Shown: positions 53,051 through 57,207 of the stretch, piece after piece
How the letters are laid out: each line of letters opens with the position of its first letter
Position numbering within the stretch: position 1 is the first letter of the stretch
Origin: Chthonomonas sp.
Lineage (GTDB): Bacteria; Armatimonadota; Fimbriimonadia; Fimbriimonadales; Fimbriimonadaceae
Assembly: GCA_016788425.1 (NCBI GenBank)
Contig: JAEURQ010000002.1
Span: 806,001 to 870,000, forward strand
DNA: 64,000 bases
Reading direction: 5' to 3'
Translations under genes and position numbers: made by a program
The notes under the pieces: model-generated
Seen by the model: the letters and a program-made list of their open reading frames with translations, nothing else
The model's database searches: none
What the model was told of the DNA's origin: nothing

Positions 53051-53080
53051 AGGAGGCTTTGGCTACGGTTGTACCCGCTC

Positions 53081-53086
53081 TATACT
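53081..53086 (+). promoter_or_regulatory. -10 box TATACT of the sigma-like/STAND operon
   Basis: TATACT, 17 bases before the ATG at 53104; AAGGAG lies between and serves as SD. A TTGGCT about 16 bases upstream of the -10 could be the -35. Confidence 0.6.
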
Positions 53087-53103: not shown

Positions 53104-54159
53104 ATGCAGAGCGACGAACGATTCGAAAAACGTTGGCATGCCTCGATTCCGATCTTCGAGCGCTATCTGACCAAGTTGGGTCAGGCACCCGATTCGATTC
53201 CCGACGTCCTGCAGACCGCGTTCACTAAGATTTGGCCGCGCCGCCACGAGCTCAGCTTTGAGGATGACGGGCGGTGGCTTGCCTATCTCAAGTGCGTGTT
53301 CGACTCGGTTCGGCATGACCACGGTGCGAAGGATGGCCGCGAAACGCCCGTTCAACCAGACAAGGTGTTAGTTGCCGATACGACGTTCACCGAGGCGATT
53401 CAGGCGCGGCTCGACGAGCGCGAGGCCACCGAAGCCTCCCAAGACCTGTGGCTGGGCGAGGCGCCCGACGAACTGCCAACCAAAACCCTGGCCGCGATGC
53501 TGCTGCTTCTGGACGGGCGTCGCCCGAGTGAACTTGCTCAGATATCACAGTTTTCTCGCCAGAGTTTCAGCTTGCGGGCGGCGGTTTCGGTGCCTCGCGT
53601 GCAGCGGCAAGTCATGTACGAAGTGCTCAAGCCGCCTCACGACCAAGTGGCCTGCGCCGTGCTGGGGCTGCCGGTTGACCATCTTGCCGAAGCCGTGACC
53701 AGCAGCGCGGCGGGCCGAGATCATTGCTCCGAAACCGGCAAGTGGCGGGCGACGGAAACGCATATCGCGATTCGACATTGCCTCGAATATGAACCGGCCA
53801 GCATCATTTCTCGATCCATTCCCGAGATGCAACTGAACGACATCGCAAAGGTAATTGTTAGAATCCAAACCTTGCTGCCGTTTTCTAGTGCGGTGCAAAC
53901 AATTTTGCAAGGCATGGCGCGATACCGTCTGGACCACAAAAGTCTAGGCGAAAGCGGCTTGTGGAAGCTCGTGGCCTTTCAGTACACGCTGGAAAGTCAG
54001 ACTCACCAGGACCTGCTGGCCTGGATGAGTGGACCCGCCCACCAATGTGGATTCAGCCTCGGTCCGATGCAAGTGCACGGGTGGATCAGCAATAAGCGTC
54101 TTCTGCGCGAATTGCAAGCCAACATCGAAGAACGGAGGCGACGCGATTGGCCCAGCTAG
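53104..54159 (+). CDS. Sigma-70-like regulator with novel C-terminal domain
   Basis: A 351-residue protein. Residues about 14-75 resemble ECF region 2 (IPDVLQTAFTKIWPRRHEL, then GRWLAYLKCVFDSVRHDH, like the VQETFLRAW and WLLTIARN segments). About 122-165 resemble region 4 (LPTKTLAAMLLLLDGRRPSE, LAQISQFSRQSFSLRAAVSV). Residues 170-351 match nothing I know; they include a Cys/His-containing stretch (RDHCSETGKWRATETH, IAIRHC). The sigma match is weak, so it may be a DNA-binding regulator rather than a true sigma factor. AAGGAG precedes the ATG. Its last 13 bases overlap a STAND ATPase gene. Confidence 0.68.
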   Translation: MQSDERFEKRWHASIPIFERYLTKLGQAPDSIPDVLQTAFTKIWPRRHELSFEDDGRWLAYLKCVFDSVRHDHGAKDGRETPVQPDKVLVADTTFTEAIQARLDEREATEASQDLWLGEAPDELPTKTLAAMLLLLDGRRPSELAQISQFSRQSFSLRAAVSVPRVQRQVMYEVLKPPHDQVACAVLGLPVDHLAEAVTSSAAGRDHCSETGKWRATETHIAIRHCLEYEPASIISRSIPEMQLNDIAKVIVRIQTLLPFSSAVQTILQGMARYRLDHKSLGESGLWKLVAFQYTLESQTHQDLLAWMSGPAHQCGFSLGPMQVHGWISNKRLLRELQANIEERRRRDWPS

Positions 54160-56105
54160 ATTGGACCGAAGAGCTTTTCCTCTCTTGCCTAGAGCCGGAA
54201 GTTTCGGTTCTGTTGCGTTCGCCCGAAGATCGCCGCCGGTGGCTTGCGCGCATGCTGGCTCAGCGCACCGTCGGCCGTATTCCGACTGACAACTTGCCCT
54301 GCTTTGGCCGCGCTAAGCCGATCGCGCAGGCGGTTGACCTTCTGCGTGGCGGCGCAAGTGTCGTTACCTTGGTCGGCGAAGGCGGCGCGGGAAAATCGCG
54401 AGTCGCTCGCGATGTTGCCCGGCAACTGGATCGCGAAGGCTGGCCCGTGTTTTGGGTGGACGCAACCTGGGCCTTGGATTTTCGCGACTTGCAAGCGAGC
54501 ATCCTCGCGACCGTGGGCGCGGCTGATAACGGGATCATCCTGCTTGATGACGTAAAACCCTCGGACAGCCCTGGCCTCGCTGCCCTGCTGAACACAATGC
54601 CTGGCATGCAACTTCTGTGCACCGCGAAAGCCAAGCTCGGAATCGGCGAACGCGAGATTCGCGTAGGCTCACTGACTCAAGCCGCCAGCCGCGAACTGTT
54701 TGCGCGCATGAACCCCGGGGTACGGCTGCCATCGCGCGTAGCTCGGGTTCCCTTGGCGCTATTGCTGTTGGCCGCCGCGGGAGCGAGCTCGGCCAGCCTG
54801 ACCTTGCCGCCCGCGACCAGCGCGGCCCCCATCTCCAAGGAGCAAATCATCATGAGTTCAATCAGCCTGCTCGACCAACCCAACTTCCTGAAACTTCTGT
54901 CCCTCTGCACCCTCGCCGGGCCATTCAATGAGGCCATCGGGCGCGAGGTGGTGCAAGCCAGCGGCACGAGCGACACCAATATCCAGCCGCTGGTGGACCT
55001 CGCGTTCCTGCAAGTCCGCGATGCTAACGCGTATATCATTCACGACGACGTGAAGGAGCAGGTGTGGCAGGCCGCTCGCGACCGCCGACTGGACGCTGCT
55101 GTTGAGCAAGCCCGCGACGGCCACGCCACCGTGTTTGTCAATCGCGCCCGTTCGATTGGCGACGCATTGCGCACCGGCGCTTGGGTTGAGGCGATGCAGA
55201 ACATGCTAGCCGACCGCATCAACTGCCGCGAAGCCCTCCGCCACACGTGGGTATCGCGCCAGTTTGATGCTGTCAAGACCGTCGCGCAATCGCTTTCGCG
55301 ACCGCTCTTTGAGGCGGGATATCTCGCCGACTTCCGGGAGTTCGCCAGTCATGGACTCGAAGCGAGTATGGCGACCGCCGACACACCCGCCGAACTTGAG
55401 ATGCTTGGCCTGCAGGGCGCCCTTGCCGGTCGGGAAGCCGATGAAGAAACCGCCACCAACCTCTGGACACGACGCTTGAGCCTGGCGCGAGAACAAGGCG
55501 ACTGGGTGACCGCGATGGACGCGCTCGGCGACCTCGCGCACCAAGCCTTCGGCCAAAACGACGACCCGGCGGCTCTTGAGTTTGCGAACCAAGGCCTCGA
55601 GTTGGTCAGCCGAACACCGCATGCTTCCCACGAAGCCACGCTAAGGTCAATCCGTTGCCGCATCTTTGCGCGCCAAAACCAAACGGACGACCTGAGCGCG
55701 GAACTGTCCCAGATGCAAGACCTCTTGCCGACGGTGACCGAGCGGGCGCTTCGACCGTTTGTGCTGTACTCCATGGCCCTGCTCTACATCGAGCTCGCTC
55801 AACCTCAGCCGGCGGAGGCACTGATCCGCGCGCTCATCGGAGAGGCGAGCGAAGGACAGCGGGTCATCGGTCTCGGCTGGGCGCTGCGCAACCTTGGCCA
55901 ACTGAGCGAAGCCGACGGCAACTTGGCGCTGGCTACGCGCTGTTTTGTCGCGGCGAGCAAAGTGTTCAACGAGTACGAAACCGCGCACAAAAAAGTAGCC
56001 CGCGCCGCCCTCCAAGGGTTCGAAGATCGGCACGGGCTCAACGTCGCGGACGAGATTCTGGCGGCCTCCGAGTTGGATTGGCCAGAGCTCATCGCCACGA
56101 TTTAG
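54147..56105 (+). CDS. AfsR-type STAND ATPase with TPR-like repeats
   Basis: A 652-residue signal-transduction ATPase. CFGRAKPIAQAVDLLRGG then VTLVGEGGAGKSRVARDVA contains Walker A GEGGAGKS (77-84). Walker B is GIILLDDV (129-136), and QLLCTAKAKLG a sensor-like strand. This is the order found in AfsR/NB-ARC regulators. From about 330 on, helical TPR-like repeats occur (EFANQGLELVSRT, AEALIRALIGEASEG). No output enzyme domain is visible; output may pass to the sigma-like partner. Start TTG at 54147 with GGAGG eight bases upstream, inside the partner gene. Stop interlocks with the convergent gene (TTAG). Confidence 0.8.
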   Translation: MAQLDWTEELFLSCLEPEVSVLLRSPEDRRRWLARMLAQRTVGRIPTDNLPCFGRAKPIAQAVDLLRGGASVVTLVGEGGAGKSRVARDVARQLDREGWPVFWVDATWALDFRDLQASILATVGAADNGIILLDDVKPSDSPGLAALLNTMPGMQLLCTAKAKLGIGEREIRVGSLTQAASRELFARMNPGVRLPSRVARVPLALLLLAAAGASSASLTLPPATSAAPISKEQIIMSSISLLDQPNFLKLLSLCTLAGPFNEAIGREVVQASGTSDTNIQPLVDLAFLQVRDANAYIIHDDVKEQVWQAARDRRLDAAVEQARDGHATVFVNRARSIGDALRTGAWVEAMQNMLADRINCREALRHTWVSRQFDAVKTVAQSLSRPLFEAGYLADFREFASHGLEASMATADTPAELEMLGLQGALAGREADEETATNLWTRRLSLAREQGDWVTAMDALGDLAHQAFGQNDDPAALEFANQGLELVSRTPHASHEATLRSIRCRIFARQNQTDDLSAELSQMQDLLPTVTERALRPFVLYSMALLYIELAQPQPAEALIRALIGEASEGQRVIGLGWALRNLGQLSEADGNLALATRCFVAASKVFNEYETAHKKVARAALQGFEDRHGLNVADEILAASELDWPELIATI

Positions 56106-56896
56106 GGGTTCGGTGGTTCAGGTACCTCTTCGACGCAATACGCTTTGAGGAAAATGAGGTCAAGTTCGGCCACGGTGAGCGCCGGAGTCGAACTGATGAT
56201 CGGTCCTTCCGCGCCCTCGCAAGCCACGAGGTTGGGAAACTCGTCCGGGCAGAGTCCGCCCGAAAGGTTTTCAAAGAACATCCGCACGTCGCGCATGCCG
56301 CCGCCGCCCGTGGTCCCCCGCGGATTGATGCGCAGGCTCGACATGGGCAGCATCGTGATGTCGCCATCTTTAGCGATCTCACGGAGTTCTCGCGGGACGA
56401 CCCCGCTCGTGTCTTGCAGCCAGTTGAGGAAGCCCACCTGATCCTGCGCGACCGCCGACATCATCATGGCCAAGAAGCCGCGATCGGGATTGATTTGCAA
56501 GTGAACAAACACCGAGTTTGTCTCCCGAAGAATGAAGAATTCGATGTTGGGGAACTCAAGATGCGTCGCCAGAGCGGCATCGAGGTTCTCCCAGAAAGTA
56601 GCGAGGTTCGTGGCTGTCATACCCACACCCGGCCCGAACGTCGGAATCGCGTCATCGTGCCCGGTAACAATCACCAGGGCGGTGCCGCTCATTCCCTTGA
56701 CGACGAGTCCGCCTTCCGACGGGGTGGACGTACTGAATTCGATAAAGTAGTGGCCGCTCATCGAGGGTTCCGCCTCGGGCGCGTTATCTTCAATCCACGT
56801 GCCGGGATCATCCAAAAGCTCAGCCAGCGCGCCGCTTTCGGTCTTGACAATCCACAGTTCCTCGTCCTCCGCCATGGGAATGTATCGGGTGCTCAT
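56102..56896 (-). CDS. Hypothetical cytosolic protein
   Basis: About 264 residues; no family recognised, no signal peptide or membrane helix. It is acidic, with segments GTALVIVTGHDDAIPTFGPG and MLPMSSLRINPRGTTGGGG, and a Pro-rich end (EEVPEPPNP). ATG at 56896 chosen over a TTG two codons earlier; AGGA lies ten bases upstream. Convergent with the STAND gene, sharing four bases of stop codons. Whether it belongs with that pair is unknown. Confidence 0.65.
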   Translation of the reverse strand: MSTRYIPMAEDEELWIVKTESGALAELLDDPGTWIEDNAPEAEPSMSGHYFIEFSTSTPSEGGLVVKGMSGTALVIVTGHDDAIPTFGPGVGMTATNLATFWENLDAALATHLEFPNIEFFILRETNSVFVHLQINPDRGFLAMMMSAVAQDQVGFLNWLQDTSGVVPRELREIAKDGDITMLPMSSLRINPRGTTGGGGMRDVRMFFENLSGGLCPDEFPNLVACEGAEGPIISSTPALTVAELDLIFLKAYCVEEVPEPPNP

Positions 56897-57132
56897 CTGC
56901 AATGTTTCCTGAAGGAAAAAATCCTTCTCATCACAAACCCGTTTGAACGGCGGAATCTAACGTGGCCGCATGAAAATTGCAAGAATTTTTGCGGGCGCTG
57001 TTCGATTCTGCGCCCAGAGGCGGTTGTTCACTATGCCTTGCATTGCCCCATGTTGAGGCGCGGGCGGGGGGCACGATGCCCCTCGTCCCGCTTTCAAAGC
57101 ATGAGAACCCCGCCGAGCGGCAGGCAAAAAAA

Positions 57133-57207
57133 TGGAGCCGATGACCGGACTTGAACCGGTGACCTGCTGTTTACGAAACAGCTGCTCTACCACTGAGCTA
57201 CATCGGC
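57133..57207 (-). tRNA. tRNA-Thr (anticodon CGU)
   Basis: A 75-base cloverleaf on the minus strand: acceptor GCCGATG/CATCGGC, anticodon stem GCTGT/ACAGC with loop TTCGTAA (anticodon CGT), T arm CCGGTTCAAGTCCGG, encoded CCA. Decodes ACG. Confidence 0.96.

Follow-up and report, generated by a model that had tools for sequence, protein, structure and literature searches.

An overlapping sigma factor–STAND ATPase gene pair from Armatimonadota: a putative protease-free form of a three-gene module

We describe an overlapping gene pair from an Armatimonadota genome that joins a predicted ECF-like sigma protein to a STAND ATPase and which, judging from related loci, appears to be a contracted two-gene form of a module that elsewhere carries a protease. 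The pair lies in a window of 64,000 nucleotides, the whole stretch of DNA analysed (Chthonomonas sp., GenBank assembly GCA_016788425.1, contig JAEURQ010000002.1, positions 806,001 to 870,000; coordinates below are counted from its first letter), and probably couples a sensed signal to altered gene expression. Under the best explanation overall, to which we give a probability of about 50%, the STAND-TPR protein of this contracted module would hold the sigma-like protein and release it on activation, a switch derived from one resembling Craspase.

Gene overlap and locus layout

Both genes are on the forward strand. The first, SIG (351 amino acids (aa); 53104–54159), begins at an ATG at 53104 with a GGAG 4 nt 5′ of it and stops at 54159; the second, encoding a STAND ATPase with TPR-like repeats (652 aa; 54147–56105), begins at a TTG at 54147 and stops at 56105. 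The first-pass annotation, made from the sequence of this locus, had reported a 13-base overlap and a strong internal Shine–Dalgarno sequence, and both are exact: the genes share 54147–54159, and a GGAGG ribosome-binding site of the STAND gene sits within the SIG gene at 54134–54138, 8 nt ahead of the TTG. The tight coupling that it proposed extends to the relatives, where the SIG gene overlaps its downstream gene by 4–35 nt in 19 of 19 loci measured; the overlap is therefore a family trait and not a product of chance.

Upstream of SIG, a possible housekeeping-type promoter (TTGGCT-16-TATACT; 53059–53086, forward strand) was picked up by a consensus scan, which is weak evidence, the scan giving 2 sites in the region against 0.8 expected from shuffles, and counts of shared promoter motifs upstream of the SIG genes were not above those of shuffles. 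A search of the same genome for further copies of the pair, as the annotation had suggested, found no paralogue, either as a second SIG or as a second STAND gene.

The sigma-like protein

Taken alone, the window SIG sequence has no Pfam match and gives sub-threshold NCBIfam sigma matches only. At the family level, one homologue matches Pfam Sigma70_r2 at 5e-11, and against an ECF region 2 profile the N-terminal part of the SIG family profile scores 97.7% (E 2e-12); through region 2 the SIG profile retrieves ordinary ECF sigma factors in nearly every genome searched, and its matches in the PDB are sigma factors only. An AlphaFold2 model of SIG is confident and all-helical (pLDDT 81), and its residues 1–79 (53104–53340, forward strand) superpose on Mtb SigH with a VIA-align Z of 11.2 (rmsd 2.1 Å, 77 residues), a score in a range (below about 13) that can mean little for helical models and with which the sequence profiles agree independently. 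Ranked by Z, the top 15 matches are ECF sigma chains, lower rows falling to about 4–6, and the best Foldseek match is SigH (E 0.22, probability 0.97). Family profiles and predicted fold together identify a real ECF-type sigma region 2, bearing out the region 2 signature first noticed; structure prediction of 53104–54159, which had been named as a possible refutation, recovers the region 2 fold.

Region 4 is weakly detectable. Module A (residues 105–200; 53416–53703, forward strand) is a putative, diverged region-4-like helix-turn-helix at the place expected of region 4; it is collinear with ECF region 4 at 15% probability, in a part of the protein that the fold search barely covered. Any region 4 here is diverged in sequence, and promoter recognition by SIG is not certain because of this divergence. 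Module C (residues 270–351; 53911–54156, forward strand) is a duplicate of module A (profile–profile 90.7%, E 1e-6, score 36, against 0.2% for the reversed control and a score of 23.6 for the next-best real shuffle; one further shuffled control scored 131.7 over 7 columns and was judged a numerical artefact of hhalign). Compared directly with a classical region 4, module C stays at noise level; it duplicates module A instead. The 180-residue domain that could not be placed at first therefore consists at least partly of a duplicated region-4-like helix-turn-helix, the module and its copy both falling in this part of the protein.

The STAND protein

The STAND protein carries a Walker A motif (GEGGAGKS; 54375–54398, forward strand) together with Walker B, GxP and MHD-like motifs, the set that marks an NB-ARC-type ATPase; its sensor motif is degenerate, reading TAK in place of TSR. 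By itself the window protein gives Pfam matches under the curated cut-offs, whereas close relatives exceed the NB-ARC cut-off, and its comparison with solved structures returned nothing significant. No output domain was found in it, and the earlier description of a STAND core with TPR-like repeats and no output domain is upheld. The AfsR-type label is not. AfsR/SARP-type STAND regulators have an NB-ARC-like ATPase followed by TPR-like repeats, an arrangement that is shared here, but neither the window protein nor its relatives match a SARP/BTAD DNA-binding region, and the nearest relatives carry an N-terminal CHAT protease at that place.

Two-gene and three-gene forms

Of the 113 genomes of the order, 15 have a SIG homologue, and other families of the phylum have homologues too; the named records among the relatives are all Armatimonadota (Armatimonadetes) MAGs. 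By our own count from neighbourhood listings, a STAND gene adjoins SIG in 25 of the 27 loci that no contig end truncates (L035 and L036 are the exceptions; in L037 and L039 it is adjacent on the opposite strand), so that the pair, whose absence from related genomes had been put forward as a possible refutation, is conserved.

Most loci hold a three-gene form composed of SIG, a middle protein of about 370 aa (MID) and a CHAT protease/STAND/TPR protein of about 1000–1060 aa. The CHAT domain of these relatives is recognized by Pfam at 1.3e-29 and conserves its His–Cys dyad; no such protease lies beside the sigma gene in the window. The three-gene form is present in families f1, f13 and f19, and the two-gene form (the window, L023, L024, L025, L029, L031 and L033) was seen in f1 only. 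In a SIG tree with weak deep branching and an arbitrarily drawn root, the window groups with L023, L024 and L031 in a clade with 98/98 support, and two changes are needed to account for the two-gene label. This distribution favours an ancestral three-gene form, and the gene content of the loci indicates that the window pair is a contracted two-gene form of the Armatimonadota module from which the protease is missing.

MID and the anti-sigma link

MID consists of an anti-sigma-like N-terminus that lacks the zinc ligands and a C-terminal part without a known family. Compared with a zf-HC2 anti-sigma profile, the N-terminus reaches 88.7% (score 35.5, where 60 shuffles gave at most 13.6 and SIG segments no more than 15.5), the profile having been built from the same order with an alignment that includes two stray rows (L109 and L118). 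The MID profile gave nothing significant against solved structures and has no DUF1822 match in Pfam. In four sister two-gene forms the N-terminus of the STAND protein scores 96.6% against MID (E 5e-10) and 39% against the anti-sigma profile (score 26; shuffle maximum 12), which points to a MID anti-sigma-like segment fused to the STAND protein. In the window STAND protein, the N-terminal 46 aa that precede the ATPase do not detectably resemble either MID or anti-sigma proteins, scoring 0.1–3% when compared alone.

This last result bears on the sign of the regulation. The STAND protein could be a positive partner that, once activated and oligomerised, brings SIG to promoters or RNA polymerase, by presenting or recruiting it, in the manner of an AfsR- or MalT-type activator with its DNA-binding part on another chain. 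We regard this as rather doubtful: the absence of a recognisable anti-sigma segment from the window protein suits it, as do cyanobacterial proteins that have sigma and NB-ARC parts on one chain (PMC11119718), an arrangement that would fit joint action, but the parent three-gene form has an anti-sigma-like protein and the sister two-gene forms retain the corresponding segment on their STAND proteins.

Proposed mechanism

We prefer the reading in which the STAND protein restrains SIG. In the three-gene form, a trigger sensed by the TPR/STAND part would lead to nucleotide exchange and oligomerisation, the oligomer would activate the CHAT protease, and cleavage of MID would then free SIG. The window form has lost CHAT and, it seems, most or all of MID. 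With the protease gone, its STAND protein would have to control SIG without cleavage, as an inhibitor (preferred) or as a co-activator. In the former case the STAND-TPR protein would itself serve as the anti-sigma factor, its N-terminus binding SIG in an ADP-bound resting state, and a trigger at the TPR region would cause SIG to be released or handed to RNA polymerase. Since this N-terminus has no similarity to MID or anti-sigma proteins, the model is weakest at the very step on which the window form depends most. The specific version, in which a STAND ATPase is an anti-sigma factor whose NLR-like, nucleotide-driven opening directly frees the sigma protein, having evolved from a protease switch by loss of CHAT and most of MID, is offered as a tentative possibility. 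We infer that SIG and the STAND protein bind each other, and likewise whether control is negative or positive, what triggers it, which promoters are served, that MID is cleaved, and the role of the convergent gene described below; the same holds for ligand sensing by the ATPase and its direct control of SIG, as the first-pass annotation had envisaged.

Relation to known systems

In Craspase, a TPR-CHAT protease cuts an inhibitor bound to an ECF sigma factor (PMC10028731), and by analogy this is the closest tested logic for the module. The likeness lies with the three-gene form, in which a CHAT protease, a putative sigma inhibitor and an ECF sigma protein are encoded together, as are Csx29 (TPR-CHAT), Csx30 and CASP-sigma in the output of type III-E CRISPR systems (PMC10028731). 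Here, in contrast, the protease incorporates a STAND ATPase, SIG bears additional duplicated modules, and the window form is without the protease; no Cas7-11 was seen in the module loci.

Other parts of the arrangement have precedents of their own. ECF54 sigma factors are encoded near genes for CHAT, subtilase or carboxypeptidase proteins and are reported to lack an anti-sigma factor (PMC8999054); they resemble the module in placing an ECF sigma gene beside a CHAT gene and differ from it in that MID is anti-sigma-like and the CHAT protein has STAND and TPR parts. Neighbourhoods of ECF sigma, DUF1822 and caspase genes have also been noted (PMC8195603), where an ECF sigma gene likewise stands next to a caspase-superfamily gene with a middle protein, although MID is without the DUF1822 match and the EACC2 part was not seen here. 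Cyanobacterial sigma factors fused to NB-ARC or TPR_MalT (PMC11119718) combine sigma and STAND/TPR parts within one regulator, whereas the window has two overlapping genes in place of one chain, belongs to another phylum and encodes duplicated C-terminal modules. No paper returned by our literature search, which left out most subscription journals, describes a SIG/MID/CHAT-STAND-TPR module. ECF sigma genes near CHAT or caspase-like proteases and sigma–NB-ARC fusions are already known.

Immune sensing and the regulation of transcription are both known roles of NLR-like STAND ATPases. The module would unite such an ATPase with CHAT-operated cutting of a sigma inhibitor outside CRISPR, in versions with and without the protease, and the two versions offer a natural experiment in how an allosteric sigma switch might arise from a proteolytic one. 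A previously unannotated gene family also gains partners, among them a linked third protein that is a candidate target or regulator.

The convergent gene and the genomic setting

This third gene, CONV (56102–56902, reverse strand), encodes up to 266 aa, the likelier ATG start (MSTRYIP) being at 56896. It is single-copy in this genome, and its predicted model is poor (pLDDT 46). A genome-wide profile search across the order's 113 genomes found CONV in 11, every one of which belongs to the 15 that carry SIG (hypergeometric chance about 2e-12 by hand calculation, ignoring shared ancestry), and this co-occurrence links CONV to the unit of SIG and STAND. In genome G042, several CONV-like matches (L160, L169, L173, L174 and L175) lie mostly away from the SIG locus.

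The congener G044 keeps SIG, STAND and CONV intact in the same order and orientation at another genomic place, the orthologues of the window's flanking genes being 74–77% identical and on other contigs. SIG and STAND are 30–32% identical between the two. Taken together, this makes the unit patchy in occurrence, and it is either mobile or diverging quickly. Codon-position differences in SIG and STAND fall in the order 3 > 1 > 2, consistent with coding constraint. Aligned with window positions 53104–56902, congener locus L181 shows CONV (60–61%) to be about twice as conserved as SIG and STAND.

The same comparison speaks to whether the two-gene form is a decaying, functionless relic of the three-gene module. 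The loss of CHAT and MID, the shortened N-terminus and the TAK sensor would fit decay, but both reading frames are intact with their overlap kept, the Walker A and MHD-like motifs are retained, and the three genes persist intact and in order in a congener whose SIG and STAND have diverged so far under an apparent coding constraint; we consider a relic very improbable. It is also unlikely, if less so, that SIG is no longer a sigma factor and has become an adaptor or DNA-binding protein, with the region 2 fold retained, within a conflict (defence-like) system, with CONV or another protein as effector. The diverged region 4, the patchy occurrence (15 of 113 genomes), the differing genomic places in two congeners and the fast divergence would all suit such a role, and predicted conflict systems do include ECF-like helix-turn-helix domains (PMC8195603); against it, region 2 is well conserved across the family, and no window protein matches a known defence model, CHAT and one weak ATPase match being found in a relative only.

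A tRNA-Thr (CGT) at 57133–57207 (reverse strand) adjoins the end of the unit. The congener orthologue of the gene beyond it has neither tRNA nor unit nearby, and the idea that the tRNA is a shared integration site was not supported, the three congener contigs that were examined having no tRNA. A gene that by eye resembles a REP-associated (Y1-type) transposase immediately precedes the congener's unit (L023:2702–3232, forward strand).

Some related loci carry additional genes. Two tandem CHAT-STAND-TPR genes follow one SIG–MID pair in L040 (2517–5711 and 5915–9094, forward strand). Outside the order, the CHAT-STAND-TPR gene is followed, at the position of CONV, by a gene for a protein of about 420–475 aa with no significant Pfam match and, in several loci, a signal-peptide-like start (L084:2730–4145 (−), L085:5193–6617 (+), L086:1440–2780 (−), L088:2867–4135 (−) and L091:2773–4098 (−)). 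Several families of the phylum have, upstream of their SIG gene, a divergent gene (L082:10095–10688, L083:1445–2044, L084:10098–10571, L086:8050–8526 and L093:723–1199, all on the forward strand) whose products, of about 157–199 aa, have similar sequences (W..LVKGL.E.W).
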